A DNA stretch of 54,949 nt, taken from the NCBI RefSeq assembly GCF_000177675.1, contig NZ_ADGX01000054.1, positions 1 through 54,949 on the forward strand. The letters are read 5' to 3'. The notes beneath the pieces are model-generated. The model did not search any database. It was given only the letters and a program-made list of their open reading frames with translations, and was not told where the DNA came from. The DNA is from Parafrankia sp. EUN1f. GTDB lineage: Bacteria > Actinomycetota > Actinomycetes > Frankiales > Frankiaceae. The translations under genes and the position numbers were made by a program. Shown here piece after piece: positions 11,306 to 36,505 of this stretch (positions are counted from its first letter, which is position 1; the number at the start of each line of letters is the position of its first letter).

Positions 11306-11309
<4 letters not shown>

Positions 11310-12133
11310 CCTCGCCGGCGGCCGATCCGCCAGTGGACCCACCAGTGGACGGCGCACCGAGCCCGCCGCCCGCGCCGGAACGGGCGGCGGGCTCGGTGCA
11401 GTCCGTCGACCGTGCGCTCGCGCTGGTCGAGCTGCTGGCCGCGGCCGGCGACGGCGCCGGGCTCACCGACCTCGCCCGCGCCACCGGCCTGCCGCAGCCG
11501 ACCGTCCACCGGCTGCTGCGGGCGCTGCACGAACGCGGCTGGGTGCGGCAGGACGCCGATCGCCGCTACGCGCCCGGTGCCCGGCTGATCGGGTTGGGCA
11601 ACGCGGCGCAACGGCTGCTCGCCGCCGGCGCCGAGCCGTTCCTCGGCGAGGCCGTGGCGGTGTCGGGGGAGACGGCGAACCTCGCGGTCCTGGAAGCCGA
11701 CCAGGTGGTTTACGTGGCGCAGGCCGCCTCGCCGCGCCGGCTGCGCATGTTCACCGAGATCGGCAACCGGGCGCCGGCGCACAGTACCGGGGTGGGCAAG
11801 GCCATGCTGGCGTTCCTGCCGGAGCCGGCACTGCGGGCGCTGGTCGAGCGCAGCGGCCTGCCGCGGCGCACCGCGACCACGATCACCGACCCGACGGCAC
11901 TGCGCGCCGAGCTCGCCGCCATCCGACAACGGGGCTACGCGACGGACGACGGCGAGGAGGAGGCGGGTGTGCGCTGTGTGGCCTTCCCGCTGACGGACCT
12001 GTCCGGCCGGGCGCCCGCCGCGCTGTCCGTGTCGGGCCCGGCCAGCCGGATCACGGCCGCCGACGTCGAGCCGCTCGCGGCCCGGCTGCTGCCCGTCGCC
12101 GCGGCCTGCGCCGACCATCTCCTGCGCCGCTGA
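11306..12133 (+). CDS. IclR-family transcriptional regulator
   Basis: A 275-residue regulator translationally coupled to aceB by an ATGA overlap. After a Pro/Ala-rich N-terminus, the winged HTH lies at about residues 33-95 ([20 protein letters not shown], then [13 protein letters not shown]). The C-terminal effector domain carries typical IclR segments: [32 protein letters not shown] and GVRCVAFPL. IclR proteins commonly control glyoxylate-shunt genes, and the coupling to malate synthase suggests that role here. The TTCCA-N5-TGGAA site at 9576 is a candidate target. Confidence 0.9.
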
Positions 12134-12155: not shown

Positions 12156-12204
12156 CAAGATAGTCAACAGTGTTGACGCGCCGGTACGAACCAATATGAT
12201 CTTG
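12156..12204 (+). promoter_or_regulatory. 49-base promoter/operator element, copy 1
   Basis: From outside in, the element has CAAGAT (12156-12161) and its complement ATCTTG (12199-12204) at the ends, and a perfect 15-base palindrome GTCAACAGTGTTGAC at 12163-12177. TTGACG (12173-12178) and TATGAT (12195-12200) are 16 bases apart and read as a strong promoter that overlaps the palindrome. Transcription would give a leader of about 85 bases before the hydrolase ATG at 12294. A second copy of the same length and spacing lies at 14100-14148. Confidence 0.7.
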
Positions 12205-12293
12205 AAGCGTCGGCCCATGTCGGGCTGATCGTAGAAACGCCTGGTTTCCCGGGACCTCGGCGGCGGAACCGTCCGCCCTGATCCTGACTGGCG

Positions 12294-14033
12294 ATGAGAC
12301 TCCACACTTCCGACATCCGGTCGGCCACCAGACGACAACCCAGCAGGCAACCCCTCGGCAGGCATCGTGGCGGCGTGCGGCGCGGCCGCGGGCAGCTACC
12401 CGCGCGCGGTACCGCGCTGGGCGCGGCGATGCTCGTCGGCGCCGCGTCACTCGTCGTGGGACGCGCCGGCGCGTCGGCCGCGGCCCTTCCCGTGGCAAGT
12501 GGGAATCCCCTGCTCGCCCCCTTCGAGAGCCAGCCGGCGCGCTGGCATGAGTGCCAGGTCGGCCCGAACGACGCGGTCGGCGGCTACCTGGACGCCGTCG
12601 GCGCGCAGTGCGCCGACGTCAGCGTTCCGCTGGACTACGCACGCCCGACCGGACGGACGATCACCCTGGGGCTGGCCCGGATCCGCGCGGTGGACCAGGC
12701 GCACCGGCGCGGGCCGCTCATGGTCAACCTGGGCGGGCCCGGCGGCGGCGCGGTGGACGCCATCGCCGACATCCGCGCGATGCTCGGCCCGGTGGCGGAC
12801 CGCTTCGACCTGGTCGCGATGGATCCCCGCTTCGTCGGGCGCAGCTCGGCGCTGGACTGCGGGCCGGCCCTGGGCGCCGACTGGCTGCGTGCCGCCGGGC
12901 CTGACCGGGACAGCTTCGAGCGGGTGGCCGACGAGCAGGCCGCGACGGCCGCGGGCTGCTCGTCGCACGCGGATGTGCTGCCGTTCGCCTCGACCCGCAA
13001 CACCGCGCGGGACATGGACGTCGTCCGCGCGGTGCTCGGGGCGGCCACGACGTCCTACCTGGGCTACTCCTACGGCACCTACCTGGGTGCCGTGTACATG
13101 CAGATGTTCCCGGACCGGGTGGACCGGTTCGTCCTGGACAGTGTGGTGGATCCCGCCACCTACACCCCGCGGGTGCTGCGCGGCAGCGGCGATCTGCTCG
13201 AGGCGGCCCTGGGGGAGTGGGCGGCCTGGGCGGCCGGGCAGGACGCGCAGCTCGCGCTGGGGCGTACCGCCGCGCAGGTGCTGCGTACCGTCGACCGGAT
13301 CTACCAGGCCGCCGCACGCCGGCCGTTGACCGTGGACGGTGTGCGCTACGACGCGTCGGACGTCCCGCGGCTGCTCATCGCTTCGCTGACCGATGACAGC
13401 GAGGACGCCGCGGCGGTTCTCGCGATGGGCGTGCGTGCCTTCGCGGACGCCGCGGACGGCCGTGCCCCGGCGACGAACCCCTACCTCGCAGAGTTCCTCC
13501 AGGGGCTCGCGACGGATGGTCCGGCCCTGCCCGGTGCCCGCGCCCACGCACAGGCGGGAACCGACGCCGGCCCTGGTGGCTCGGTGGTCAGTGCGTTCCA
13601 GAGCGCGCAGCTGGCGGTGCTGTGCGGTGACGTGCCGGCGCCCCGGATCGCCGGTGACTATCTGGCCGACATCCGCCGGCACACGGGCGCACAGCGGCAT
13701 GTGGCCGGTGCCATCTGGAACATCACGCCGTGTGCCTACTGGCCGGTGCGGCCGGTGGAGCCACCGACGCGGGTCGCGAACGCGGTTCCGGCGCTGGTCG
13801 TCGCCGCCGAGAAGGACAACCGCACGCCCTACGCGGGTGCCCGGGCCCTGCACCGGGTGTTGAGCGCCTCCCGCCTGGTGACGCTTCGGGACGCCCGGGT
13901 ACATGGGGTGTACCCGGGACGCAGCGGGTGCGTGGACGGCGCGGTCAACGCCTATCTGCAGAACGGGACGTTGCCGAGGGCCGACGTGACCTGTACTCGG
14001 CCGCCGGCCGCGGTGGGCTCACCGCCGCAGTGA
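12294..14033 (+). CDS. Secreted alpha/beta hydrolase, tripeptidyl-aminopeptidase type
   Basis: A 579-residue exported hydrolase. A long arginine-rich N-terminus leads into a hydrophobic segment (ALGAAMLVGAASLVVG) and an Ala-rich cleavage region, consistent with export. The mature enzyme begins near FESQPARWHECQVG. Family motifs are the oxyanion region MVNLGGPGGG, MDPRFVGRSS, the nucleophile elbow GYSYGTYLG, and a C-terminal TAP-like region with the acid in AEKDNRTP and a histidine in ARVHGVYPG. Related Streptomyces enzymes release tripeptides from protein N-termini; the substrate here is not shown. The gene stands alone, bracketed by the two 49-base elements at 12156 and 14100, the first of which is its likely promoter. 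Confidence 0.85.
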   Translation: MRLHTSDIRSATRRQPSRQPLGRHRGGVRRGRGQLPARGTALGAAMLVGAASLVVGRAGASAAALPVASGNPLLAPFESQPARWHECQVGPNDAVGGYLDAVGAQCADVSVPLDYARPTGRTITLGLARIRAVDQAHRRGPLMVNLGGPGGGAVDAIADIRAMLGPVADRFDLVAMDPRFVGRSSALDCGPALGADWLRAAGPDRDSFERVADEQAATAAGCSSHADVLPFASTRNTARDMDVVRAVLGAATTSYLGYSYGTYLGAVYMQMFPDRVDRFVLDSVVDPATYTPRVLRGSGDLLEAALGEWAAWAAGQDAQLALGRTAAQVLRTVDRIYQAAARRPLTVDGVRYDASDVPRLLIASLTDDSEDAAAVLAMGVRAFADAADGRAPATNPYLAEFLQGLATDGPALPGARAHAQAGTDAGPGGSVVSAFQSAQLAVLCGDVPAPRIAGDYLADIRRHTGAQRHVAGAIWNITPCAYWPVRPVEPPTRVANAVPALVVAAEKDNRTPYAGARALHRVLSASRLVTLRDARVHGVYPGRSGCVDGAVNAYLQNGTLPRADVTCTRPPAAVGSPPQ

Positions 14034-14099
14034 GACCGTCTGCCGGTGTCCGCCGAGCTCTGCTGGTCGGGCCGGACACCGGCATCCCACTCCTCCCCT

Positions 14100-14148
14100 C
14101 AAGATAATCAACAGTGTTGACGACCCGGCGTTGCCATTTTTGATCTTG
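14100..14148 (+). promoter_or_regulatory. 49-base promoter/operator element, copy 2
   Basis: This copy has the same architecture and length as copy 1: CAAGAT at 14100-14105, the core TCAACAGTGTTGA at 14108-14120, TTGACG at 14117-14122, 16 bases, TTTGAT at 14139-14144 as a weaker -10, and ATCTTG at 14143-14148. The outer hexamers and the palindrome are conserved, while the bases between palindrome and -10 are not, which points to selection on the sites. It lies in a 373-base gap (14034-14406) before the dienelactone hydrolase gene. I see no gene in the remainder of that gap. Confidence 0.65.
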
Positions 14149-14406
14149 ATTCACCTCACGAGATATTTGATCTCCCGCATCCACCTCCAAGCCAACCCCT
14201 GCACCGGGCTGAACCGCGTTCCTTGATCATTTTGATGCGTACCGGTTCGGCGTCGGCAGGCAAAAGCGGAACCCGCCTGTCACATCGCCGCGTCCTGCCT
14301 GGTAGACGTCTTGTGATGTGGGTGGGCCGCGTCGAGGTCACCTGCCGGTGCTCGCCTACCGGGCCCGGGGCATCGGGTGACATGACTGAAGGCGAAGGTG
14401 CGGACA

Positions 14407-15159
14407 ATGGCGTTTACCCGGCGTGATGTAGTGACAGCGGACGGCGTGCTCGACACCTATCTGTTCGCGCCAGGCGGCGGAGCCCCGGCGCCGGTCGTGA
14501 TCATGCTGGCGGATGCCTTCGGCGTGCGGGACACGGTGCTGGGCATGGCGCAGCGACTGTCCAGGTCGGGCTATCTGGTCGCGCTGCCGAACATCTTCTA
14601 CCGGACGGATGAGGCGACCACCGGCTCGGTCTCGACGGATTTCTCGGATCCGTCGCTGCGGGCGAAGATGGGCGAGCGTTTCACCCGGGCGACCCCGCAG
14701 GCGGTGATGACAGATCTCGGTGCGCTGCTCGATTCGCTCGCGGGCGAGCCGGGTGTGCTGGAGGGCCCCGCCGGGATCATCGGGTACTGCATCGGCGGCC
14801 GGCTGGCGTTCACCGCGGCGACCGTACTTCCGGAGCGGATCGCGGCGGCGGCGTCGATCCACGGTGGCGGGCTGGCGACGGACGATCCGTCGAGTCCGTA
14901 TCACCAGGCCGGGCAGATCCAGGGCGCGGTGTACATCGCGGCAGCGCGGAACGACAACCATCACACCGAGGCGGACCATGCGCGGCTGCTGGCCGCGTTG
15001 GATGACGCGAAGGTCGACTACGAGGCCGAGGTGCTCCCGGCGTTGCACGGCTTCGCGATGCCGGATTTCGCCGTGTACGACGAGGCGGCGGCTGAGCGTC
15101 ACTGGGAGCGGTCGCTGGCACTGTTCGATCGGACGCTTCGGGCACCGGCGGCCGGCTGA
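14407..15159 (+). CDS. Dienelactone hydrolase family protein
   Basis: A 250-residue cytoplasmic alpha/beta hydrolase. The family nucleophile is a cysteine in GYCIGGRLAF (about residue 124), the acid lies in AARNDNHH, and the histidine is in LPALHGFAMPD. The N-terminus (DGVLDTYLFAPGG, VIMLADAFGVRD) matches the DLH family. Such enzymes open dienelactones or act on related esters. The length is normal. I chose the ATG at 14407, which follows a GAAGG site. The upstream 49-base element is shared with the secreted hydrolase gene, suggesting that the two enzymes are produced under the same condition. Confidence 0.85.
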   Translation: MAFTRRDVVTADGVLDTYLFAPGGGAPAPVVIMLADAFGVRDTVLGMAQRLSRSGYLVALPNIFYRTDEATTGSVSTDFSDPSLRAKMGERFTRATPQAVMTDLGALLDSLAGEPGVLEGPAGIIGYCIGGRLAFTAATVLPERIAAAASIHGGGLATDDPSSPYHQAGQIQGAVYIAAARNDNHHTEADHARLLAALDDAKVDYEAEVLPALHGFAMPDFAVYDEAAAERHWERSLALFDRTLRAPAAG

Positions 15160-15214
15160 ACCTCGCCTGATCCGCGTCTGGTCCGCCTGGCCGGCTGAGC
15201 GGGGCTGAGCCTGG

Positions 15215-16533
15215 CTAGGCGGTCTCCGTCGTCGTCTCGGTTTCTCCGACCGGAGCCGGCTCCCCCGCCCGTGGCGGTGGGGCGAGGTGTGTGAGGTGGG
15301 TGCGGGCGGCGCGGAGCTCGGTGGTGAGGTCGTCGACCTGGCGTTCGGCGCGTTCCGCGCGGGTGCGAGCTTCCGCGCGGGCGTCGGCGAGGGCGGCGAG
15401 GCGTTCAGCGGCGGCCTGCTGTTCGGCGTGCAGGCGCGCCGCCGCTTCGGCGCGGAGGTGTTCGAGCTGCTCGGTGGCGGCGGCGCGGGCGTGTTGGAGT
15501 TCTTCGGCCGCGGCGGCGCGGGCACGTTCGGCGTCGGTTTTGGCCGCGGTGTGCAGGCGGGCCAGTTCGTCGCGTTCGCGGCGGGCGTCGTCGCGGATGC
15601 GGTCGCGGTCGGCCCGTAGATGGTCGCGGTCGGCGCGGAGCTCGGCGAGGTTCGCGGCGTCACGTTCGGCGGTCTGCGCGGCGGTGTGCAGGGCGGCGGT
15701 GAGTCGGTCGCGTTCGGCGGTGAGTTCGGTGCGGGTGCGTTCGGCGGCGGCGTGGATGCGGGTGATCTCGCCGGCTGCGTCGGCGCGGGCGCGGTCGATG
15801 TCGGCGGCGGCGCGGGCGCGGGCTTCCCGGATGCGTTCCTCGGCGGTGGCGTGTGCTTCGGCGACGGCGGCCGCGGCTTCGGTGTGGGCGGTGGCGGCGG
15901 CGGCTTCGCTGGCGGTGAGGCGCGCTTCGGCGTCTTCGAGGGCGGCGACGGCTTCGGCCGCGACGGCTTCGGCTTCGGCGCGGGCGCTGTGTTCGGCCCG
16001 GGCGGCCTGTTCGGCGCGGACGGCGCGGGCGACGGCTTCGGCGACCCGTTCGGCGGCTTCGGCTTCGGCGGCTTCGACCTGGGCTTCGGCGCGGGCGACG
16101 TCGCCGAGGCTGGCCATTTCGCGGGCGAAGGCGTCGAGGTTGCGGGTGAGGTCGGTGGTGAGGGTGCGGATCTGGGCTGCGAGTTCGTCGGCGCGCAGCC
16201 GGCCGCTGGCCAGGGGGCGGTGGGTGGTGGGACGTCCGCTGGCCTGGTCGGGACCGGTGGCGGTGTCGCGGCGGGCGAGGTCGCGGCGTCGGCGGTAGGC
16301 GGCGAGCCGGTTGTGGTTGGGGTCGTCGCAGTAGGCCGGGGGGCGTCCGGGGCGTTCGGTGGGGGTTATCGGCCGGTCGCAGCCGGGGAACGCGCAGGTC
16401 GGTGTCGTGGTGGCGGTGTTGCTTGTTGTGGCGGGGGTGTGCTGTCGGGGGCGGGCTGGCCGGGGGCCGCGGCGGCTGTGGGCTCGTCGTCGGTGGGGGT
16501 GGGAGTCGTCGCGGTGTCCTCGGCCGGGCTCAT
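15215..16533 (-). pseudogene. Cys-motif plus long coiled-coil protein, frameshift near the N-terminus
   Basis: The natural start is the ATG at 16533, opening MSPAEDTATTPTPTDDEP. That frame stops after about 56 codons, while the main frame begins without a usable start and runs to 15215. One missing C/G in the five-base run at 16433-16437 explains this, and third-position composition switches frame at the same place. Downstream is a short Cys/His motif (CAFPGCDRPI ... AYCDDPNHNR), possibly a zinc ribbon, then about 330 residues of Ala/Glu/Arg-rich heptads (for example AERDRLTAALHTAAQTAE), a long coiled coil, and an acidic Thr-rich tail. The architecture suggests a structural or DNA-associated protein. 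Function is unknown. A sequencing error is at least as likely as real inactivation. Confidence 0.6.
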
Positions 16534-16660
16534 GCTCCGGTTCTACCGGATGGACCAGGTGACCGAGCGTGTGCGGCACGTGTGCCGCCTTGTTCCTTGT
16601 GTTCGGCGGGGTGGTGGGGGTGGTTGGTGCGGGTTGCGGGGCGCCCGGGATGCTGGGGGC

Positions 16661-17353
16661 ATGTTGGATGAGCAGGGCTGGGAGCAGCGGTACGCGTCGC
16701 GCGAGACGGTGTGGAGTGGTCGTCCCAACGGCCAGTTGGTGGAGCGGGCGGGTGGGTTGGTGCCGGGGCGGGCGTTGGACGCCGGCTGTGGTGAGGGGGC
16801 GGACGCGTTGTGGTTGGCGGAGCGTGGCTGGCAGGTGCTGGCGGTGGATTTCTCGGCGACGGCGTTGCGGCGGGGGAAGGCCGCGGCGGTGGATCTGGGG
16901 CGGGCTGTGGCGGCGCGGGTGATGTGGATGCGGGCGGATGTGATGACCTGGTCGGGGTTGGATGCTCCGGTTGGGCGTTCTGGTGGTGAGGGTGGGCGGC
17001 CGGCGCGGGTGCCGCGGTTCGAGACCCGGTTTGATCTGGTGTCGGCGCAGTTCGTGCATGTGCCGGCTGATCGGCGGGCTGGGTTGGTGGCGCGGCTGGG
17101 TGGTGTGGTGGCGCCGGGGGGTTCGTTGCTGATGGTGGGGCATGATCCGGCTGATCTGGCGTTGGGGATTGCCCGTCCGGAGGCGGCGGATTTGTGTGCG
17201 GCGGTGGAGCTGGCGGGGTTGTTGGATCCGGTGGAGTGGGAGGTGTTGGTGGCGCAGGCGTGTCCTCGGCCGGTGGTGGTGGATGGCGGGGAGGTTGTTG
17301 TTCACGATGCGGTGCTGCATGCTCGGCGCCGGTTGGTTGAGTCTGTGGGCTAG
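16661..17353 (+). CDS. Class I SAM-dependent methyltransferase
   Basis: A 230-residue soluble methyltransferase. Motif I is LDAGCGEGADALWLA (about residue 39), followed by VLAVDFSATAL (the acidic residue that contacts the SAM ribose) and RADVMTW. FDLVSAQFVHVP and GGSLLMVGHDP correspond to the later Rossmann strands. The N-terminus WEQRYASRETVWSGRPNGQL is typical of TehB/thiopurine-methyltransferase-like proteins that act on small toxic molecules. The insert at residues 105-120 is Gly/Arg-rich and variable. The ATG at 16661 follows a G-rich site. The gene is divergent from the coiled-coil gene and heads a co-directional set running to 21.1 kb. Confidence 0.85.
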   Translation: MLDEQGWEQRYASRETVWSGRPNGQLVERAGGLVPGRALDAGCGEGADALWLAERGWQVLAVDFSATALRRGKAAAVDLGRAVAARVMWMRADVMTWSGLDAPVGRSGGEGGRPARVPRFETRFDLVSAQFVHVPADRRAGLVARLGGVVAPGGSLLMVGHDPADLALGIARPEAADLCAAVELAGLLDPVEWEVLVAQACPRPVVVDGGEVVVHDAVLHARRRLVESVG

Positions 17354-17403
17354 TTCGGGTTTCTGGCTGGCGCTGCCGGCGGTTCGGGGTAGTGTGCGGC
17401 GCC

Positions 17404-17784
17404 GTGGCGGTGTCGCGGCGGGTTTTCGTGTCGTTGGACTGTGCCGAGGGCTCGGAGGGGCTGTTGGCGCGGTTCTGGGCGGCGATGCTGGGTGGGGAGG
17501 TGGGGTTCACCGGTTCGACGGGTGCGGTGGGGGTGCGTGCGGAGGGTTTGTGGATTGTGGCGTTTCCGGTGCCGGGGTATGTGGCGTCGACGTGGCCGCA
17601 TGCGGGGGTGCCGAAGCAGATTCATCTCGATCTCGCGGTGGTGGATCTTGAGGCTGCGGTTGCGGAGGCGGTGCGGTTGGGTGCGGTGGCGGCTGCGGTG
17701 CAGCCGGATCCTGGCCGGTGGCGGGTGTTGTTCGATCCGGTTGGTCATCCGTTCTGTCTGACGACGGCGGCTCCGTCGGAGTGA
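17404..17784 (+). CDS. VOC (glyoxalase/bleomycin-resistance) family protein
   Basis: A 126-residue single VOC-type fold: RVFVSLDCAEGSEGLLARFWAA at the N-terminus, IHLDLAVVDLEAAVAEAVRLGA in the second half, and the C-terminal strand RWRVLFDPVGHPFCLTT. The family includes dioxygenases, isomerases and drug-binding proteins; this single-fold member resembles actinobacterial glyoxalase-like proteins of unknown substrate. The start is one of two in-frame GTG codons (17404 or 17410). Its stop overlaps the start of the NUDIX gene (GTGA), so the two are co-translated. Confidence 0.78.
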   Translation: MAVSRRVFVSLDCAEGSEGLLARFWAAMLGGEVGFTGSTGAVGVRAEGLWIVAFPVPGYVASTWPHAGVPKQIHLDLAVVDLEAAVAEAVRLGAVAAAVQPDPGRWRVLFDPVGHPFCLTTAAPSE

Positions 17785-18317
17785 GCCGGGGTGAGGCTGG
17801 CGGGGATCGGCGGCCGACGTCTGGTCGGCGGGCGGGCCGTCGGGGGCCGGTGGCGCTGCGGTGTCTGGGGGCGTCCGCGCAGGTGCCGTTCGCGGCGGTG
17901 ACGAGTGTCAGTGTGGTGGTGGTTGCTGGGGATGGTGCGTTGGTGTTGGCGGATCTGGCGCGTGGGTGGGATCTTCCCGGTGGTCATGTGCAGCGGGGTG
18001 AGACGGGGGCGGAGCAGACGGCGCGGCGTGAGGTGTGGGAGGAGGTTCGGGTTCGGGTCGGGGTGTTGGAGCCGGTCGAGGTGATCGAGTCGGATCTGTT
18101 CGGTGCTGATGATCTGACCTACATGCTGGTTTTCGTGGCGCGGGTGGCTGAGTTCGCCGAGTGGTCCGGTGGGTTGGAGTCGGCGGGGCGGGTGGTGGAG
18201 TCGGCGGAGGAGTTTCTTGCTCGTTATCGGGGTGGGGATCCGGTGCTGATGCGGCATCTGGTGGAGCGGGCGTTGGCGGTTCTGGGTATGGGGATCCGGC
18301 CGGCTGATTCGTCGTAG
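17781..18317 (+). CDS. NUDIX hydrolase
   Basis: A 178-residue hydrolase of nucleoside-diphosphate-linked compounds. The NUDIX box is GGHVQRGETGAEQTARREVW followed by EEVRVRV. It keeps the glutamates of REUxEE but has arginine where the consensus has the final glycine. The flanking strands VVVVAGDGALVLADLARGWDLP are typical. The GTG start at 17781 overlaps the VOC stop. The C-terminal 70 residues are helical and not diagnostic. Its substrate cannot be predicted. Confidence 0.8.
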   Translation: MSRGEAGGDRRPTSGRRAGRRGPVALRCLGASAQVPFAAVTSVSVVVVAGDGALVLADLARGWDLPGGHVQRGETGAEQTARREVWEEVRVRVGVLEPVEVIESDLFGADDLTYMLVFVARVAEFAEWSGGLESAGRVVESAEEFLARYRGGDPVLMRHLVERALAVLGMGIRPADSS

Positions 18318-18370
18318 CGGGTCGTCGGTGGTCCGCCGGTGTGTGGTCGGGTTGTATTGTTGGTGGTTTT

Positions 18371-19177
18371 GTGCGGGTGACGGTGCGGGTTTACTGGCTG
18401 CTTCTGGCGGCCGGGTTTCGCCGTCAGGCGACGTATCGGCTGGCCGCGTTGAGCGGGCTGGTCACGAATGTGACGTTTGGGTTGTTGAAGGTGGCGGTGC
18501 TGCTCGGTGCGGTCCGGGCGGCGGGTGGCGAGGTCGGCGGGTATGACGTCGCGCAGATGAGTACGTATATCTGGCTGTCGCAGGCGATGCTCGGTTCGGT
18601 GAACTTCTGGGGTGCCAGTGAGTTCGCGGAGCGGATCAAGGACGGTCAGGTCGCGGTGGATTTCCTGCGGCCGTTGGATGTGCAGGCCGCGACGGTGACG
18701 GTGGAGGTCGGGCAGGGGTTGTTCGCGTTTCTTCCGCGGGGGGTGCCGCAGCTTGCGATCGGTGGGCTGGTGGTCGGGATGACGTGGCCGCGGTCGGTGG
18801 TGCTGGTGGTGTTGGGTGTGGTGAGTCTGCTGATGGCGGTGGTGATCTCGGCGGCGACGGTCTATCTGGTGGCGACGGCGGGGTTCTGGCTGGTGGAGAC
18901 CCGTGGGGTGCAGCTGGTGTACATGGTGGCGTCGGGGTTTCTCGCCGGGTTGTTCGTGCCGATCAGCCTGTTTCCGCGATGGTTGGAGCTGGTGGCGCAG
19001 GCGACGCCGTGTCCGTCGATGCTGATGTATCCGGTGACGATCCTGGCTGATCGGGTGGATGTGGCTGGTGCGTGTGTGCTGCTGGCGGTGCAGGGTTTCT
19101 GGCTGGTGGTTGTCGGTGGGGCCGGTCAGGTGCTGACGCGGGCGGGGCGGCGGCGGTTGGAGATCCAGGGTGGTTGA
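18371..19177 (+). CDS. ABC-2 family exporter permease, first subunit
   Basis: A 268-residue membrane subunit with about six hydrophobic segments. QMSTYIWLSQAMLGSV and EFAERIKDGQVAVDFLRPLD are typical of the two-permease ABC-2 exporters (COG4587/COG3694 with a COG4586 ATPase). That family includes a methyl-viologen exporter described in Synechocystis. The GTG at 18371 is the likely start. The stop lies inside the next permease gene (8-base overlap), so the three transporter genes form one operon. The substrate is unknown, possibly a cationic toxin or a lipid. Confidence 0.8.
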   Translation: MRVTVRVYWLLLAAGFRRQATYRLAALSGLVTNVTFGLLKVAVLLGAVRAAGGEVGGYDVAQMSTYIWLSQAMLGSVNFWGASEFAERIKDGQVAVDFLRPLDVQAATVTVEVGQGLFAFLPRGVPQLAIGGLVVGMTWPRSVVLVVLGVVSLLMAVVISAATVYLVATAGFWLVETRGVQLVYMVASGFLAGLFVPISLFPRWLELVAQATPCPSMLMYPVTILADRVDVAGACVLLAVQGFWLVVVGGAGQVLTRAGRRRLEIQGG

Positions 19178-20075
19178 GCCGCCTGCTGTCGAGCCGCTGG
19201 CGGCGGTGTCTGCCGTGGCGTCGGCCGCTGTGGCCGCGTCGGGGCCGGTGGTGGCGGAGCCGGTTGCGGGGTGGCGGGATCGGCTGCGTCCGTATCGGGC
19301 GGTGTTGGCGTCACGGGCCCGGTCGCAGCTGTCGTATCGGACGAACTTCGTCCTGGATCTGGTCAGTTCGTTGTTGTCGGCGGTGGTCGAGCTGGCCGAG
19401 GTGTGGGTGGTGTTCCATGCGGCGACGCGGCTGGGTGGGTTGGAGTTCCGGCAGATGCTGCTGGTGTTCGGTCTGGCTGATCTGGCGTTCTCGCTGGCGG
19501 ATCTGGTGTTCGGGCATTGTGATCGGCTGCCGACGTATCTGCGGGCGGGCATGTTGGACGTGTTCTATCTGCGGCCGCAGCCGCTGCTGGCGCAGCTGAT
19601 CACCAGTGAGGTGAGTCTGCGGCGGTTGGCGCGGGCGTCGGTGGGGCTGGTCGCGTTGGTGGTGGGGCTGGTGCTGTGTGACATCGACTGGCGGCCGGCG
19701 GCGGTGGTGTTGCTGGTGAGTTCGCTGCTCAGTGGGGTGGCGGTGTTCGCGGCGCTGTTCGTCGCGGCGGGGGGCCTGCAGTTCTTTCTGGTGGATGGTC
19801 GGGAGATGACGAACGCGTTCGTGTACGGGGGGCGGTATGCGGCGACGCAGCCGGCTTCGGTGTGGGGGCGGCCGTTGCGGCTGGTGTTCGGGTTTTTCGT
19901 CCCGATGGCGTTCACGGGGTATCTGCCGGCGCTGGTGTTGTTGGGGTTGCCGGGGCCGGTGTGGTTGCCGGGGTGGCTTGGCTGGTGTGCTCCGGTGGCG
20001 GCGGTCTGGGCGTGGTCGGTGGCGTTGGGGTGCTGGCGTCTGGGTGTTCGGCACTATCAGGGAGGTGGCGGTTGA
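19170..20075 (+). CDS. ABC-2 family exporter permease, second subunit
   Basis: A 301-residue membrane subunit. An Ala/Val-rich N-terminus of about 35 residues is followed by YRAVLASRARSQLSYRTNFV, LADLVFGHCDRLPTYLRAG and MLDVFYLRPQPLLAQL, which match the partner permease family, and about six membrane segments. FVYGGRYAATQPASVWG lies in a conserved loop. The GTG start at 19170 overlaps the first permease by eight bases, and its stop overlaps the ATPase start, so the subunits are made in a fixed order. Partner prediction is strong; the transported compound is not known. Confidence 0.8.
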   Translation: MVEPPAVEPLAAVSAVASAAVAASGPVVAEPVAGWRDRLRPYRAVLASRARSQLSYRTNFVLDLVSSLLSAVVELAEVWVVFHAATRLGGLEFRQMLLVFGLADLAFSLADLVFGHCDRLPTYLRAGMLDVFYLRPQPLLAQLITSEVSLRRLARASVGLVALVVGLVLCDIDWRPAAVVLLVSSLLSGVAVFAALFVAAGGLQFFLVDGREMTNAFVYGGRYAATQPASVWGRPLRLVFGFFVPMAFTGYLPALVLLGLPGPVWLPGWLGWCAPVAAVWAWSVALGCWRLGVRHYQGGGG

Positions 20076-21124
20076 GCGCGGAAGGTCTGCTGCCGCGGGC
20101 GCGGGGCTCGGCGGAGGTGCCGGCCGCCACCGGAGAGACCGTGGTGGAGACGGTCGGGTTGACGAGGCGGTTCACCGTTCGTGAGGGGGTGCGGCGCCGG
20201 CAGGTGAGCGCGGTCGAGGACCTCACGGTGCGGATCGGTGCGGGTGAGGCGGTCGGGTACATCGGTGCGAACGGTGCCGGGAAGTCGACGACGATCAAGA
20301 TGTTGGCGGGGATCCTGGTGCCGACGGCGGGCACCGTGCGCACATGTGGGTTGCGTCCGGTGAAGGATCGGCGGCGGCTGGCCCGTCAGATCGGGGTGGT
20401 GTTCGGTCAGCGGTCGCAGCTGTGGTGGGACCTTCCGGTGTGGGAGTCGTTGCGGATTCTGGCGGCTATTCATGCGCTGCCGGCGGCGCGGCGGCGGGCG
20501 CGGACGGATGAGCTGGTGGAGCGGTTGGAGATGGCGGAGTTCTGGTCCGTCCCGGTGCGTCAGCTGTCGTTGGGGCAGCGGATGCGGGCGGAGATCGCCG
20601 CGGCGTTGCTGCACTCCCCCCGGCTGGTGATTCTGGATGAGCCGACGATCGGGCTGGATGTGCTGTCGAAGCAGCGGTTGCGGGAGTTCCTCGTCGAGGA
20701 GCGGGCGGCGTATGGGACGACGTTGCTGTTGACGACGCATGACATGGGTGATGTGGCGCGGCTGTGTGAGCGGGTGCTGGTGATCGACCATGGGCGGTTG
20801 GCGTTCGATGGTGCGTTGGCGGGTCTGGCGGGGGCGGCGGGGGCGGATCGGGTGCTGGTGGTTGACCTCGCGGAGCCGGCGGCGGATCTGGAGGTGGCGG
20901 GTGTGGTGGCGGCGCGGCATCTGGGAAGTGAGGGTCGTGGTCTGCGTCAGCGGTTGGCGTTCGACGCGGAGGCGACGACCGCGGCGCGGGTGCTGGCGGC
21001 GGTGTCGGCGCTGGTGGAGGTGGTGGATTTCCGGGTGGAGGAGCCGGATATCGAGGATGTGGTTCGTCGTCTCTATGCGGCGACGCGTCACCCGCCTGAC
21101 GCCCCGGCGGCCAGACGTTCATAG
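20072..21124 (+). CDS. ABC exporter ATPase of the two-permease ABC-2 family
   Basis: A 350-residue ATPase. Walker A is GANGAGKST (about residue 68), the Q-loop is VVFGQRSQLWWDLP, the signature is QLSLGQRMRAE, and Walker B is LVILDEPTIGLD, followed by TTHDMGDVARLC. WWDLP after the Q-loop and SLGQRMR are typical of COG4586 ATPases. The start is a TTG at 20072 that overlaps the permease stop (TTGA) and has GGGAGG six bases upstream; no ATG or GTG in frame fits as well. The C-terminal 110 residues form a small extra domain. With the two preceding permeases it makes one exporter. Confidence 0.85.
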   Translation: MSAEGLLPRARGSAEVPAATGETVVETVGLTRRFTVREGVRRRQVSAVEDLTVRIGAGEAVGYIGANGAGKSTTIKMLAGILVPTAGTVRTCGLRPVKDRRRLARQIGVVFGQRSQLWWDLPVWESLRILAAIHALPAARRRARTDELVERLEMAEFWSVPVRQLSLGQRMRAEIAAALLHSPRLVILDEPTIGLDVLSKQRLREFLVEERAAYGTTLLLTTHDMGDVARLCERVLVIDHGRLAFDGALAGLAGAAGADRVLVVDLAEPAADLEVAGVVAARHLGSEGRGLRQRLAFDAEATTAARVLAAVSALVEVVDFRVEEPDIEDVVRRLYAATRHPPDAPAARRS

Positions 21125-21238
21125 CCGGAGGATCGTCTGCGCCGAGCTGTTGTCCGGGGTTTGGTGAACCGCTACGTGTGACCGTGCGTCTGTATCGCCA
21201 TGGGAACCTGTCTGGTCGGTGTTTCGCGTCGGTTTGCC

Positions 21239-22372
21239 ATGACCTGGCGGGCCGCTGTTTCCTGCTGCCGCGGCCCGCACGGACGGCACGGCCGGCGGCG
21301 TGGCCTGCGCGCGATGGTGTGGGTGCCAGTCGCGGTGCTGCTGGTCGGCGGTCTGGCCGTGGCGTGTGCGCCGGCGGGCGGCGATGTGACGGGCCGGCGT
21401 GGGCCGGAAGCCGCGGCATCAGGCGACCATGGGGCAGGCGAGGTGTCGGAGGTGTCGGAGGCGGGGTGGCGGTCGGAGTCGTTTCGGGACATGGTGGTGG
21501 AGGTCCCGGCCTCGTGGGAGCCCGCGCCGGCGCCGGGCAGCGACTGGTGCGCCGCGGTCGAGGGCCGGCGGGCTGCCTTTCCCGCCACGCCCTATGTCGA
21601 CGGTGAAGGTCCTTACCGGGCCGTGATGACGATTGGCTGCCCGGGCGGTGGGGAGGGGCCGGACCTGCATGGCGGCGGTGTGCCTCGTGAGTACTGGTCG
21701 CCGCACGTCTGGTTCGCCGCCACGCCCACTGCGGGCGGGGTCGAGGAGGTGCCGGACGGGCGGGTCAGTGCGCATGGCTGGACCCGTCTCGTCCGCACGG
21801 TGGGCTCGGCGAAGGTGTTCGTCCTGACGGATGAGGCGCACCTCGACGACGCCGAGCGGATCATCGCCTCCGCGCGCCGGGTAGCGGTCGACGATCATGG
21901 CTGTGCTGTCAGTTCGCCGATCCAGGCCGGCGGGTTCGTCCGCCCAGGCGCGCCGTTCGATGTGGCCCGGCTCGACGCGGTGGACACGGTCGCGGTCTGC
22001 CATTACGACCTGAACAGCCCGGTGGGTAGCCCCGGGCTGTTGGCGTCCCGTGAGCTCGGCGGGGCCGAGGCCACCGCGCTGCTGGCGGCGATCAGGGCGG
22101 CGCCGGTCGGTGGTGGTCCGGACACGCCGGGGACCTGTGTGCAGGACATGTGGGGGAACACCGCGATCGTGCTTCGTCTGACGGTGGGCGGGTCAACCCA
22201 CGAGGCCTACGTCTACTTCGACTGGTGTTTCGGTAACGGCATCGATGACGGAACCAGGCTGCGGGCGCTGACCACCGGCAACTGCGCTCCGCTGTGGTCG
22301 GGACGGATCACGCAGTCAGCCGGAAGTGCGGCGCCGTTCCAGGTCTGCCATCCCGACAGCCGCCGTCGGTGA
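21239..22372 (+). CDS. Predicted lipoprotein of unknown function
   Basis: About 377 residues. A basic N-terminus (RGPHGRHGRRRGLRAM) precedes a hydrophobic segment VWVPVAVLLVGG and a lipobox-like LAVAC, so the protein is probably anchored on the outer face of the membrane. The mature part contains several cysteines (for example DWCAAV, IGCPGG, VCHYDLNSP, GTCVQDMWGN, FDWCFGNG), suggesting disulphides in two related lobes. I do not recognise a family. The ATG at 21239 gives a sensible signal peptide; an ATG at 21200 is also in frame. It follows the ABC exporter by 114 bases or less, and cotranscription is possible. Confidence 0.7.
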   Translation: MTWRAAVSCCRGPHGRHGRRRGLRAMVWVPVAVLLVGGLAVACAPAGGDVTGRRGPEAAASGDHGAGEVSEVSEAGWRSESFRDMVVEVPASWEPAPAPGSDWCAAVEGRRAAFPATPYVDGEGPYRAVMTIGCPGGGEGPDLHGGGVPREYWSPHVWFAATPTAGGVEEVPDGRVSAHGWTRLVRTVGSAKVFVLTDEAHLDDAERIIASARRVAVDDHGCAVSSPIQAGGFVRPGAPFDVARLDAVDTVAVCHYDLNSPVGSPGLLASRELGGAEATALLAAIRAAPVGGGPDTPGTCVQDMWGNTAIVLRLTVGGSTHEAYVYFDWCFGNGIDDGTRLRALTTGNCAPLWSGRITQSAGSAAPFQVCHPDSRRR

Positions 22373-22450
22373 GCTCGGATGGGGACCAGCCGACGACATC
22401 CGGCTATGAAGGCGGTAGAGCCGGTAGGGCTGATGTGGGAAGGTTGTTCG

Positions 22451-32152: not shown

Positions 32153-33022
32153 TCAGTGTCGCTCAAGGATGTCGGGCTCGCCCGGTGACGGCATGGGCGG
32201 GCTGGTCTGCTGCCACCGTGGTGACGGTGTGCGCGCCTTCGTGGAACCTTCCCTCGCGGCGCGGTCCTCGCGGAGGAAACGGGCGACAACGATGGCGTAA
32301 GCGGTGACAGCGAAGACGACGATTCCCACCACGGTGGCGACGGCCCCGGACCTGATGACCGTGCTGTCGAGCCAGCCGGCGCCCTTGTCGGTCGCGCTGG
32401 CGGCGATGACGACTCCGAGGGTGCCGCCGAGGCAGCATCCGGATCCGATGCCGGTGCGGCTACGGACCCGTTTGCCGCCGAACCCGGAGGCCACCCCGCA
32501 GGGGACACCCAGGAGAACGGCTGTGACCAGGACACCGGCACCGATGTGGTGTGTGCCGAGGCCGAGCAGAAAACCGGTGACCATACCGACGAAGCCCGTG
32601 ACGAAGCGCTCCCCGGGCGGAGCGGGAGCAAGGGCGGCGCGGGCGGCGGTGGTGCCGTGGCTGGTGAGCCGGTACATCCGCTGCGGCTGGCGTGGTTGGT
32701 GGTCGGGATCGGGGTGGCCTGGTGCGGGTGGGGTGTCGTAGCTGCTGGACAGCCAGCCGGCGGCGTCGAGTCGGGCGAGGACTGTCGCGGTCGGGCGCCC
32801 GTGACGGCGGGTGAGTTCGTGTTCGCTGTAGCCACGGTGGGGGTCGCGCAGCAGGAACCGCAGCAGCATCTCGGTGGTCACGGCGAACGGAGGCTGCGAT
32901 TGCGAGGGCGTCTGTTGGCGACTGCGCACCCGGTAACCGTACTGATCGTCCTGCCCGCCGCCCCCGGTGCCGGCCCCGGCGCCGGATCGGCTTTCCGCCC
33001 GGGCACCTGCGACAAAACCCAC
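32153..33022 (-). CDS. PadR-like winged-helix domain fused to a membrane domain
   Basis: A 289-residue protein with two parts. Residues about 47-130 are a PadR-like winged helix: TTEMLLRFLLRDPHRGYSEH, ELTRRHGRPTATVLARLDAA, then MYRLTSHGTTAARAAL as the wing. Residues about 140-250 hold three or four hydrophobic segments (FVTGFVGMVTGFLLGLGTHH, VLVTAVLLGVPCGVASG, VATVVGIVVFAVTAYAIVVA). A membrane-tethered regulator is one reading; a transport accessory protein is another. The start at 33022 is uncertain because the first 45 residues are low complexity. The gene follows the multi-TM gene by 15 bases. Confidence 0.68.
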   Translation of the reverse strand: MGFVAGARAESRSGAGAGTGGGGQDDQYGYRVRSRQQTPSQSQPPFAVTTEMLLRFLLRDPHRGYSEHELTRRHGRPTATVLARLDAAGWLSSSYDTPPAPGHPDPDHQPRQPQRMYRLTSHGTTAARAALAPAPPGERFVTGFVGMVTGFLLGLGTHHIGAGVLVTAVLLGVPCGVASGFGGKRVRSRTGIGSGCCLGGTLGVVIAASATDKGAGWLDSTVIRSGAVATVVGIVVFAVTAYAIVVARFLREDRAAREGSTKARTPSPRWQQTSPPMPSPGEPDILERH

Positions 33023-33037
33023 GCTCGCGGGCGGCCG

Positions 33038-34099
33038 TCATCGCGGCGGCGCCGTCGACCTGCGGTGGGCGTGGGCCAGTAACACCAGCACCATCACCGT
33101 CAGCATGGCGTTCGCGGCGTATTTGGCCGGGTAGGACACGTCGCCCAGCGGGTCGACGACGAACGACAGGCCGGCGTTGACGAGCAGCGCGCCGCCGGCG
33201 GCGGCGAGGGCGTGCCGGCGTCCCCACCCTCGCCGGCGGGCGAGGATCGCCAGCAGCGCGGTGCCGCCGAGGAGGATCAGCAGGTCGACGGTGACACCGG
33301 GCCAGGTCGGTGGGAGCAGCTGGTGGGCGGTGAGCGCGATCATGACGGCGCCGGCGAGCAGCCACGGTCGGTGGCGGCGCCCCGCCGTGGGGATGACCGG
33401 TGGCGTGCGGCGGGGTGCCGGCCGTGGTGCGGCGAAGGCGGCCGCGGTGAGCAGGACGACGGCCAGGGCGGTGGCGGCGAGCTGTGTCGGGGAGGCGCGG
33501 AAGGTACGGCTGGCGTCGTCGTGGATCAGTGCCGCCGCCGCCAGGTACAGCACGGTCAGGGTGAGGATGCCGGGCCGGTGTAGCCAGGGGCGGTCGGCGA
33601 GGCGGGGCACGTAGGACTCGACGACGACGATCGGTGCGGTGAAGCTCCAGATGATGTGGCCGGTGAGGAAGTTCAGCAGGTAGTAGACGCTCAGGCCGGT
33701 GCCGCCGAGGAGGGTGGGGGTGCGGTCGTCGTCCCAGGTCGGGTCGCCGGTGAGGTGGGGGTTGAACAGGCTCTGGTCGACGAGTCCGGCCTGGGTGAGG
33801 CCGAACGCGGCGGCGAGCAGGATCAGGGTGGGCCAGCCGCCGCCGACGCGGCGGGTGATCTCGCGGATCAGGACGGCGACGGTGCCGTAGAGCGGGACGA
33901 AGATGATCAGCCCGGCGAGCATGGTCAGGGGCCGGCTGATGCTGTCGGCGTAGCCGATGAGGTATTCGGCGCAGATCGGGGCGAGGACCGCAAGCCCCGT
34001 GGCGGCGATCAGGCGCGTCCGCCGCGTCCGGCCCTGTGAGGGTGCCGGTGCCGGCCTGGCGGACTCCTGGGCCTGGCGGGGTCGTTCAGGTGCGGTCAT
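33038..34099 (-). CDS. Multi-pass membrane protein of unknown function
   Basis: A 353-residue integral membrane protein with about nine or ten helices, for example LAVLAPICAEYLIGYADSI, LTMLAGLIIFVPLYGTVAVL, YYLLNFLTGHIIWSFTAPIV and LTVMVLVLLAHAH. A short charged N-terminus precedes the first helix. VLIREITRRVGGGWPTLILL and FNPHLTGDPTWDDDRTPTLL are distinctive loops. I do not recognise the family. Its start overlaps the small membrane gene by 14 bases and the wHTH gene follows by 15, so the three are cotranscribed. Confidence 0.72.
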   Translation of the reverse strand: MTAPERPRQAQESARPAPAPSQGRTRRTRLIAATGLAVLAPICAEYLIGYADSISRPLTMLAGLIIFVPLYGTVAVLIREITRRVGGGWPTLILLAAAFGLTQAGLVDQSLFNPHLTGDPTWDDDRTPTLLGGTGLSVYYLLNFLTGHIIWSFTAPIVVVESYVPRLADRPWLHRPGILTLTVLYLAAAALIHDDASRTFRASPTQLAATALAVVLLTAAAFAAPRPAPRRTPPVIPTAGRRHRPWLLAGAVMIALTAHQLLPPTWPGVTVDLLILLGGTALLAILARRRGWGRRHALAAAGGALLVNAGLSFVVDPLGDVSYPAKYAANAMLTVMVLVLLAHAHRRSTAPPR

Positions 34100-34379
34100 G
34101 TCGGCTGATCGCGCTGCCCGCCGCCGCGACGAGCAGCCCGACGACGATCATGATGATGGAGCTGTAGATCTCGTAGCCGGCGGGTGTGAGATGGCGCAGG
34201 AAGCCCATCAGAGGTGGCCACCAGCCGAACGCCTCGCGGAGCAGGCCGCACAGGCCGCCGATGGTGAGGACGTCGCCGAGGACCTGCCCGGCGGCGGCCA
34301 CGGGCAGCAGCGCCGGATCGGGCTGTGGGTGCGGATGCGGGGACGGCTGGTCGGGCGGTGACTGGTCGGGGGCGCTCAT
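34086..34379 (-). CDS. Small two-TM membrane protein
   Basis: A 97-residue protein with a Pro/His-rich N-terminus (PPDQPSPHPHPQPDP) and two hydrophobic stretches (VLGDVLTIGGLCGLL and YSSIIMIVVGLLVAAAG). The ATG at 34379 has TACCGT (34392-34387) seven bases upstream, which fits a -10 box for a leaderless transcript. It is the first gene of the minus-strand operon and is divergent from the histidine kinase gene across 159 bases. The function is unknown. Confidence 0.65.
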   Translation of the reverse strand: MSAPDQSPPDQPSPHPHPQPDPALLPVAAAGQVLGDVLTIGGLCGLLREAFGWWPPLMGFLRHLTPAGYEIYSSIIMIVVGLLVAAAGSAISRHDRT

Positions 34380-34538
34380 GTGATCAACGGTAGGGAGCGC
34401 GGGTCGGCCGTCGCATCGGCCGGAGGACGGCGGGCCGGTGACGAAGGTGGGTGGTGGACCGCCGGGGTGTCATCCTTTGGTATCGCCTCTGGTGCGGGGC
34501 CTTTCGGGGCGGTTCGGGCCCGCGTAGATTGCCGGGGC

Positions 34539-35819
34539 ATGCCCCGTGTGCAGCGCACCGGGCGGGACTGGGCCGCCGACCTGGGGTTCGTGCTGTTCGC
34601 CGCCTGTTTCGCCGCGCTCACCTCGCAGACCGTCACGGTGACGGACGATCCGGGGCCGGTGTGGCGGGTGGTGGACCAGGTCGCCGGCGGGCTGGGATGC
34701 GCGGCGCTGCTGGCGCGGCGGCGATGGCCGGTGCCGTTGGCGGTGGTGCTGGTGGCCGCGGGGACGGCGACGCCGTACCTGACAGGCCCGGTGCTGGTGG
34801 CGGTGTTCACCGTCGCCGCGACCCGGCGGCGGCGGGTCACCGTGGGGGTGGCGGCGTTGGTGTTCGCCCCGCTGCCGCTGTTCCTGTGGAGGCTGGCGGA
34901 CCTGCCCGAAGCCCGGGCGGATCGTGCGGTGACCTATTTCGCGCTGGTCGCGGGGGCTGTGGGCTGGGGGTTGTTCCGGCGTTCGCGGGGGCAGCTGATC
35001 GCGTCGCTGCGGGCGCGGGCGGAGTTGGCGGAGGCGGACGCGGAGTTACGCGCGGACCGTGCCCGCCAGGAGGTCCGCGCCCAGATCGCCCGGGAGATGC
35101 ACGATGTGCTGGGGCATCGGCTGTCGCTGTTGAGCGTGCATGCGGGGGCGTTGGAGTTCAACACGTCCGCGTCGGCGGCGCAGGTCGCGGCGGCGGCGGG
35201 GGTGATCCGGGAGAACGCGCATCTGGCGTTGCGGGATCTGCGCGAGGTGATCGGTGTCCTCAACGACGGTGGTCCCGGCGACGAGCTGTGGCCGTCGGTG
35301 GGCCTGGCGGATCTGGGGCGGCTGGTGGCGGAGACGCGGGCGGCGGGGGCCGTGGTGGAGCTGACCGGGTGGGCCGGCGGGCTGGTGGAGGGGGTGGCTC
35401 CGCCGGCGGCGGTCGGGCGGGCGGCGCTGCGGATCGTGCAGGAGGCGCTGACGAACGCCCGGCTGCACGCACCGGGTGCGGTGGTCGCGGTGCGGCTGTC
35501 CGGCGGGCCGGGCCGGGGGTTGACCGTGGACGTCCACAGCGGGCCGGTGCCCTCGTCCCCCGGGTCGTCCGCCGCGTCGGACCCGCCGATGGCGGTGTCA
35601 CCGGTGCCGCGGCTGGCGTCGGGGTGGGCGGGTGGCGGTGCGACCGGTGGCGGGCGCGGTCTGGTCGGGCTGGCGGAACGGGCCCGGGTGGCCGGTGGTG
35701 TGCTGCGGGCGGGGCCGACCGTGGACGGGTTCGAGGTCCGGGCCTGGCTTCCGTGGGCCGGCGAACCCGCCGAGGACCGGGAGCCGGACCGGGAGGGAGC
35801 GGGGAGGCGGCGTGGATGA
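34539..35819 (+). CDS. DesK/NarL-type sensor histidine kinase (first pair)
   Basis: A 426-residue membrane kinase. Four or five hydrophobic segments fill residues about 12-145. The HisKA_3 phosphoacceptor is REMHDVLGHRLSLLSVHAG (His about 187), and the ATPase domain shows the N-box QEALTNARLHAPG and G-box GRGLVGLAERARV. A Gly/Ser/Pro insert interrupts the ATPase domain before the G-box. The ATG at 34539 lies eight bases after TAGATT (34525-34530), a likely -10. Its stop overlaps the response regulator start (ATGA). It is divergent from the minus-strand membrane operon, which may be its target. Confidence 0.88.
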   Translation: MPRVQRTGRDWAADLGFVLFAACFAALTSQTVTVTDDPGPVWRVVDQVAGGLGCAALLARRRWPVPLAVVLVAAGTATPYLTGPVLVAVFTVAATRRRRVTVGVAALVFAPLPLFLWRLADLPEARADRAVTYFALVAGAVGWGLFRRSRGQLIASLRARAELAEADAELRADRARQEVRAQIAREMHDVLGHRLSLLSVHAGALEFNTSASAAQVAAAAGVIRENAHLALRDLREVIGVLNDGGPGDELWPSVGLADLGRLVAETRAAGAVVELTGWAGGLVEGVAPPAAVGRAALRIVQEALTNARLHAPGAVVAVRLSGGPGRGLTVDVHSGPVPSSPGSSAASDPPMAVSPVPRLASGWAGGGATGGGRGLVGLAERARVAGGVLRAGPTVDGFEVRAWLPWAGEPAEDREPDREGAGRRRG

Positions 35820-36475
35820 TCGGTGTCCTGCTGGTGGATGACGACGCTCTGGTGCGGGCCGGGTTACGGCTGATGCTCGGCGGCGCCGGGGACATCGAGG
35901 TGGTCGCCGAGGCCGGGGACGGCGGGCAGGTCGCCGCGTTGGTCGCCGCGCACCGGCCCGCCGTGGTGTTGATGGACATCCGGATGCCGGGTGTCGACGG
36001 GGTGCGGGCGACCCGGATGGTGCGGGCGGTGCCCGGTGCGCCGGAGGTGCTGGTGCTGACCACGTTCCACACCGATGCCCATGTGCTGGGGGCGTTGCGG
36101 GCCGGCGCGGCCGGGTTCCTGCTCAAGGACACCGCCCCGGGTGACATCGTGGCGGCGATCCGCACGGTGGCCGCGGGTGATCCGGTGCTGTCCCCGGCGG
36201 TCACCCGCCGGCTCATCGACCAGGCCACCGCTGGTGGTGACGGTGGGCGTGACGATGTCGCCGCGCGGGCCCGGGCCCGGCTGGGGATGTTGGGGGATCG
36301 GGAGCGGGAGGTGGCGTTGGCGGTGGGTCGGGGCCTGTCGAACGCGCAGATCGCCCGGGAGCTGCACCTGGCGTTGCCGACGGTGAAGACGCATGTGTCG
36401 CGGATCCTGACCCGCCTCGACCTGAACAACCGGGTGCAGATCGCGCTGCTCGTCCACGACGCCGGCGTGCGGTGA
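35816..36475 (+). CDS. NarL-family response regulator (first pair)
   Basis: A 219-residue regulator. The receiver domain begins IGVLLVDDDALVRAGLRLML, with the phosphorylated aspartate in VVLMDIRMPGVDG (about 53), then VLTTFHTDAHVLGALRAGA and FLLKDTAP (lysine). The C-terminal LuxR-type HTH is LGDREREVALAVGRGLSNAQ, IARELHLALPTVKTHVSRIL. It is coupled to the kinase upstream by ATGA overlap and forms a complete two-component pair. It converges on the lipoprotein gene 30 bases away. Confidence 0.9.
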   Translation: MIGVLLVDDDALVRAGLRLMLGGAGDIEVVAEAGDGGQVAALVAAHRPAVVLMDIRMPGVDGVRATRMVRAVPGAPEVLVLTTFHTDAHVLGALRAGAAGFLLKDTAPGDIVAAIRTVAAGDPVLSPAVTRRLIDQATAGGDGGRDDVAARARARLGMLGDREREVALAVGRGLSNAQIARELHLALPTVKTHVSRILTRLDLNNRVQIALLVHDAGVR

Positions 36476-36505
36476 CGCCGGACGTCTGACGGCTTCCGGC
36501 GACGG

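Follow-up and report, generated by a model that had tools for sequence, protein, structure and literature searches.

A polar, dif-facing terminus element of the Frankiaceae and its TetR-type candidate binder: a possible replication fork trap

Replication fork traps are described from few lineages: Tus-type traps from a few gammaproteobacterial groups and plasmids, and RTP-type traps from some Bacillus, the two being presented as convergent inventions (PMC10331603). In outline accounts of the Tus-Ter system of Escherichia coli and its relatives, several short (23-bp) polar sites lie on both replichores, the innermost opposed ones flanking dif (PMC10331603, PMC8707476). RTP-Ter of Bacillus subtilis is summarized as a dimeric protein acting at a two-part asymmetric site, and tus and rtp are both described as autoregulated via a ter site in the promoter (PMC10331603). 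In other settings, TetR/tetO arrays serve as replication roadblocks (PMC9859026). Within the open-licence PMC literature, taken mainly at the level of abstracts, no such fork trap is reported in Frankia or other Actinobacteria.

The Frankiaceae element described here is like Tus-Ter in the length, number and polarity of its sites, in their presence on both replichores and in the position of dif between the innermost opposed sites. The likeness extends to the promoter of a TetR-family gene, which carries the palindrome of the element and to which the gene product is predicted to bind. With RTP-Ter, the candidate system would share a dimeric protein, a two-part asymmetric site and autoregulation. 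A homolog of Tus (Pfam Ter, PF05472) was found in none of 34 Frankiaceae genomes, the E. coli control being positive. Unlike Tus-Ter, the Frankiaceae candidate is of TetR type, with a palindromic core, sites that are nearly all intergenic, and a strong local skew zone; unlike RTP-Ter, it has a TetR fold, combines one palindrome with an AT-rich arm in place of two RTP half-sites, and belongs to another phylum. Our best reading of these data is a TetR-based analog of Tus-Ter and RTP-Ter, or a related polar terminus barrier.

Two copies of the element lie in the window, by which we mean the whole analyzed stretch of 54,949 nucleotides (contig NZ_ADGX01000054.1, here C343) from the Parafrankia sp. 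EUN1f genome (G000; 9.35 Mb, 396 contigs). A preliminary description of this DNA had seen them as a promoter/operator element occurring twice, with the same layout, around a hydrolase gene. The positions and layout are letter-exact in the window, and one copy precedes and the other follows the TAP-like ORF (Table 1). Copy 1 has the layout CAAGAT-AG-TCAACAGTGTTGA-N22-ATCTTG, with TTGACG-N16-TATGAT, and copy 2 the layout CAAGAT-AA-TCAACAGTGTTGA-N22-ATCTTG, with TTGACG-N16-TTTGAT.

Table 1. Positions of the element copies, their neighbors and associated features in Parafrankia sp. EUN1f (window coordinates unless a contig is named)
Feature	Position	Strand	Remarks
IclR-type regulator gene	11306..12133	+	ends 22 bp before copy 1; neighbor, not considered part of the system
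Terminus element copy 1	12156..12204	+	core 12156-12178, AT-rich GATC arm to 12204
TAP-like alpha/beta hydrolase gene	12294..14033	+	between the copies; neighbor
Terminus element copy 2	14100..14148	+	core 14100-14122; innermost known copy on this side of the terminus
Dienelactone hydrolase-family gene	14398..15159	+	after copy 2; neighbor
Strand-asymmetric zone	15200..22400	+	inside the innermost element; GC skew 0.17-0.40 per kb, AT skew to -0.56; about 0 before it
TetR-type gene (G000)	C372:33310-33933		about 1.2 kb from the dif-side element

Matches to TCAACAGTGTTGA with up to two mismatches number four in the window when counted by strand (two places), against 0.17 expected from shuffles. 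Genome-wide, the full pattern occurs at eight places (≤3 mismatches), and the core at ten (≤2 mismatches) or eleven (≤3); the reversed patterns gave no match, and 10 Mb of Markov sequence modeled on the window contained no core match at ≤2 mismatches. Because this one genome holds ten core copies, the element is a dispersed family and not a pair. The earlier view that the two copies are no recent duplication holds, the copies being conserved functional sites. Their orthologs lie on the minus strand of contig C7 of G004, at 413422 for copy 1, which points to dif by synteny, and at 411474 for copy 2.

The conserved part of the element is a 23-bp polar core, CAAGATARTCAACRNYGTTGACG, usually followed by an AT-rich arm that contains GATC. 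Across 100 aligned copies, the core positions appear strongly constrained except for the middle triplet, an appearance that is partly enforced, because the search itself permitted only 2-3 mismatches. GATC lies within 40 nt after the core in 88 of these copies (41 with the same spacing as in the window), and in a 40-nt stretch upstream of the core in 28. An initial search of 40 relatives placed the full pattern in 15 genomes of a single family, assigned to the Frankiaceae by named orthologs of the associated protein from Parafrankia, Frankia, Pseudofrankia and Protofrankia. Of 35 Frankiaceae genomes searched, 31 contain the core (≤2 mismatches), at 1 to 14 copies each and with none for the reversed control; in a class-wide sample of 393 genomes, it matched in three of the 358 outside the family, the same genome count as the reversed control. 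Members of genus g2 (Protofrankia type) have weaker sites, mainly of the form TARTCAACRNYGTTGACG, each of the five genomes, G018 included, having 6-8 of them at ≤1 mismatch. A search with this g2 form (≤1 mismatch) found no sites in G007, which is only 63% complete, G008 or G011. G002 also contains two near-perfect palindromes of the form CAAGATTGTCAAC-N3-GTTGACAATCTTG (C171:553-581 and C178:12537-12565), symmetric relatives of the element that read on both strands; these lie off the dif contig and were left out of the polarity count.

To place the copies relative to the terminus, dif was located by a pattern search allowing ≤3 mismatches. The dif of G009 is letter-for-letter the F. alni dif as published (PMC3025954). 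The pattern had no match in G000, G001, G004, G005, G010, G017 or G050. At the presumed dif of G000 (C372:~35347; L005:1740) and that of G004 (C7; L063:16053), the XerD arm TTATGTCAAGT is intact and the XerC arm strongly diverged, and the entries for these two genomes in the polarity table rest on the XerD half only; G010, G017 and the other genomes in which no dif was found were left out. On the 25 dif-bearing contigs, the strand reading 5'-CAAGATA...-3' runs towards dif in 90 of 90 tabulated copies, on both sides of it; this count includes six g2 copies, and orthologous copies from sister species are non-independent within it. Restricting the table to the long contigs of G009, G013, G041 and G014 gives 33/33 copies pointing to dif, and to one genome per genus (G009, G014, G004 and G012) 24/24. 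Eleven of eleven further sites, read by eye, point the same way (one each in G012 and G013, two each in G015, G021 and G006, and three in G018).

Eight contigs have sites on both sides; in all eight, the innermost opposed pair flanks dif, and the gap free of elements spans 46-151 kb with dif at one edge. On 22 of the 25 contigs (genera g1, g5 and g6), dif has its closest copy 167-387 bp away on the XerD side, and such a dif-adjacent copy was found in three of the four element-bearing genera; on the three tabulated g2 contigs this distance is 20-51 kb, again on the XerD side. Averaged over copies, the distance to dif is 1-11% of half a chromosome on the four long contigs. Where dnaA could be placed, the sites nearest dif are far from it; dnaA is roughly opposite dif in G009, G010, G017 and G041, and about 3.0 Mb from dif on the 8.2-Mb contig of G014. 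Contig C7 of G004 is collinear with the window between 425 and 382 kb, and C7 has its dif half-site near 341 kb. This synteny and the half-site position therefore place dif past the right end of the window, with both window copies pointing to it and copy 2 the inner one.

The density of sites is highest around dif and falls off over more than 1 Mb, a distribution that also fits a terminus-domain organizer, where a TetR protein would mark the terminus for nucleoid organization or division coordination and forks would not be stopped. The core palindrome TCAACRNYGTTGA recalls the layout of matS, whose sites are likewise short palindromes confined to the terminus region, and SlmA, a TetR-family protein, offers a precedent, though the sites here are located at the terminus. 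matS sites are non-polar, however, and MatP is not a TetR protein. Full polarity towards dif is unexpected of symmetric mark-up sites, and the strand-asymmetric mutation step at the innermost sites, described below, also argues against an organizer, which we consider unlikely.

Since every tabulated copy points to dif, the orientation of the element tracks dif and not genes. Gene context was assessed, with crude gene calls, for 108 intergenic copies flanked on each side by 1.2 kb or more; only three of 111 copies are intragenic, so matches are not scattered inside genes. The preliminary description had proposed a promoter/operator role, from which these data depart: a gene start lies in the -35/-10 direction of 43 of the 108 copies (within 300 bp in 28), and the other 65 are in non-promoter positions. 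The supposed -35 block, TTGAC, is half of the palindrome, and the supposed -10 block lies in the variable AT-rich GATC arm. A sigma-70 promoter/operator pair was rejected as a general explanation on this geometry and on the variability of the right arm. Nor is the element itself dif, given its many copies per genome and the separate dif nearby. The same context bears on the idea that these are ordinary TetR operators regulating scattered genes that happen to be near the terminus. The palindrome is of TetR type, one instance lies in the TetR promoter, and each window copy stands ahead of a gene on the same strand; yet the share of copies with promoter geometry, the location of 30 of the 108 between convergent genes, and an orientation set by dif rather than by genes leave this idea highly improbable.

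The candidate binder is a TetR-family gene found in 32 of 35 Frankiaceae genomes; it is missing from G007 (63% complete), G008 and G011, the same three genomes that lack sites. It lies within 1.5 kb of an element in all six genomes of the window's own genus, Parafrankia, and in G002, G003, G004 and G000 a dif or dif half-site is within about 2 kb of it. All 13 genomes of g5 (Frankia) have one off-lying copy of the element, with the variant CATGAT, adjoining the gene. The element palindrome occurs upstream of the gene at 29 of the 30 loci opened, in g6 with one change, and was not found at the remaining locus, L187. Several g5 genes (L143, L144, L148 and others) show no in-frame ATG, GTG or TTG between operator and HTH; a non-standard start or an odd leader is possible in these genes.

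The domains of the protein are Pfam TetR_N and TetR_C_1. In its AlphaFold model (pLDDT 85), a disordered arm of 24 N-terminal residues precedes a standard TetR fold, and the closest structural matches are PamR2, ActR and SimR; the TetR_N HTH, the TetR_C domain and the fold all place it in the TetR family. It shares with TetR/ActR/SimR-type regulators both domains, the fold and a palindrome in its own promoter. Unlike the sites of these regulators, those of the Frankiaceae ring the terminus with fixed polarity, and among the best 80 matches in the species-genome collection the 24 loci of at least 55% identity are all from Frankiaceae, the next relative, at 37%, marking the highest identity outside the family. 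A stretch N-terminal to the HTH, RTPRGTLS, is nearly invariant and could read the flanks of the element. The IclR-type neighbor was set aside as binder, as it is the TetR gene that co-occurs with the sites. The earlier proposal that one regulator co-controls both hydrolase genes is retained in part: one DNA-binding protein, of TetR type, probably recognizes both window copies, whereas co-control of the hydrolases finds no support in gene context or in the dif-fixed orientation.

The innermost copies are further marked by a step in base composition. Of 19 innermost copies examined in g1, g5 and g6, 14 have an inside GC skew of at least 0.19, and up to 0.33 (8-kb means), against about 0 before. 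In ten genomes, the dif-side innermost copy separates 5 kb of outside sequence with a skew of about 0 (or as low as -0.13) from 8 kb of inside sequence with a skew of 0.21-0.33; the outside value of G000 is left out, and the best single step is 70-1030 bp inside the copy. The seven far-side innermost copies have inside skews of 0.28 (the EUN1f window), 0.30, 0.16, 0.15, 0.09, 0.09 and 0.03; the far-side step is present in G000 and G004, of moderate size in G014 and G023, weak in both G009 and G041, and missing in G013, for which the tested coordinate was offset by one base. G010 and G017 have inside skews of 0.21 and 0.195 and a step at the element, with no dif half-site found within about 1 kb. 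Along the window, 1-kb skew is 0.03 at copy 2, 0.21-0.40 at 15-21 kb and 0.17-0.20 at 21-23 kb, then 0.01, which places the step about 1.2 kb inside copy 2 and not at the element. A second, weaker rise (0.16-0.25 per kb) occurs at 33000-37000 of the window, with no element near. The extreme skew of the 15200-22400 zone yields long ORFs on both strands with an odd residue composition, and gene annotation there is likely to be unreliable.

In a wider count, skew exceeds 0.2 in 30 of 66 5-kb intervals labeled as inside innermost sites versus five of 491 others. The zones were labeled by hand before the count, and all five exceptions likewise lie inside innermost sites, two of them in G010 and G017, which had been left unlabeled. 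For G009, the rightward arm has a baseline skew of +0.022 and the leftward arm one of -0.023, and none of 20 sampled 5-kb intervals exceeds 0.13. The inside skew is thus some 15 times the genome's own, and its sign is that of an inward-moving fork at every stepped site. Just outside the dif-side copy the sign is weakly opposite in five of nine testable cases, an origin-like local pattern. Which side has the strong skew bears no consistent relation to the fork expected to arrive first by arm length, as judged from coordinates only. A coding-strand effect was rejected as the cause, since the sign is identical in co-oriented genes, counter-oriented genes and intergenic DNA, with the qualification that the gene caller is biased in the zone.

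On the five g2 dif contigs sampled, neither dif nor the innermost element coincides with a clear step; a modest step occurs at +15427 of G012 contig C52. Skew that no element explains was seen at 1-11 kb of G018 contig C53 (0.05-0.19) and in one 2-kb bin of G021 (-0.25). dif itself is excluded as the cause of the step by the g2 genomes, where dif without an adjacent element shows none, by the steps in G010 and G017 away from any dif half-site found, and by the far-side steps in G000 and G004. The far-side steps also weigh on a further reading, that of a polar site for another translocase (FtsK or SMC/condensin) or an Xer accessory site, guiding or stopping something beside dif. The copy so regularly placed next to dif on its XerD side favors this reading, but the far innermost sites of G000 and G004 are stepped without a dif, and on the three tabulated g2 contigs the nearest copies are tens of kilobases from dif. 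The copies are also too few for FtsK guide sequences, and we regard a translocase or Xer role as very unlikely.

A corresponding asymmetry is seen in substitutions between G009 and G041, polarized by G019 and counted on the strand of the element. Inside the innermost copy, C>T changes affect 72 of 1461 sites (0.049 per site) and G>A changes 26 of 2771 (0.009), a fivefold difference (p=3e-15); outside there is no C>T excess (55/2551, or 0.022, versus 77/2062, or 0.037). T>C is also high inside (0.064, with A>G at 0.025), contrary to what simple deamination would give; polarizing by parsimony with a single outgroup is therefore imperfect, and simple deamination is not the whole explanation. A repeat of the test within Parafrankia gave 8/879 versus 4/1580, from few events. 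The strand-asymmetric mutation step at the innermost sites implies that DNA is synthesized or exposed differently.

The direction of this asymmetry raises the possibility of a barrier with polarity opposite to that of Tus-Ter, which would impede inward forks or seed extra inward synthesis. This reading overlaps with a fork trap, having the same parts and the other direction, and the odds of the two are not exclusive. The inside skew, with the sign of an inward-moving fork at every stepped site and at about 15 times baseline, is in its favor, but sign alone leaves the direction of arrest unfixed, and we know of no chromosome-wide precedent for such a barrier; we hold it to be quite unlikely.

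Multiple terminus sites, polar and opposed on the two replichores, with dif between the innermost pair, constitute the arrangement of a fork trap. It is this likeness to Tus-Ter and RTP-Ter, together with the precedent of TetR/tetO roadblocks, that leads us to favor a TetR fork trap. We therefore interpret the element as a polar chromosome-terminus site of the Frankiaceae with a family-specific TetR-type binder, which most likely acts as a replication fork trap (probability roughly 0.6); TetR binding at the sites and fork arrest are what we infer here from genomic patterns. In such a trap, copies on both replichores facing dif would form a nested arrangement with dif at one edge of the gap. 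A bound TetR dimer would pass forks one way and stall them the other, and forks would meet inside the trap. The asymmetric flanks, with CAAGATA to one side and the AT-rich GATC arm to the other, might give the site its polarity; this source is a guess, because TetR dimers bind symmetric operators. To our knowledge, no polarity is known for TetR/tetO array roadblocks.

The sign and strength of the inside skew and the origin-like local pattern are not predicted by a simple textbook trap. Further points against a trap are the failure to find a Tus homolog in the 34 genomes, a fold like that of any ordinary TetR regulator, the missing step in the g2 contigs sampled, the weak or absent far-side steps in G009, G041 and G013 and, in the window, a step displaced about 1.2 kb from the element. 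The skew scar could form if a late fork overran a stalled one, so that DNA was re-copied inwards, or if forks restarted beyond the site with poor lagging-strand synthesis. The balance tips slightly towards a third, independently evolved chromosomal fork trap, TetR-based and in Actinobacteria, whose innermost sites leave a strand-asymmetric mutation scar of about 7-20 kb, as if extra or defective inward synthesis restarted repeatedly at the barrier. If this is true, a TetR-based trap in Actinobacteria would be a third origin of fork traps, the question of why traps exist would become testable with simple candidate parts, and the positions at which forks stall would be naturally recorded in the skew step.
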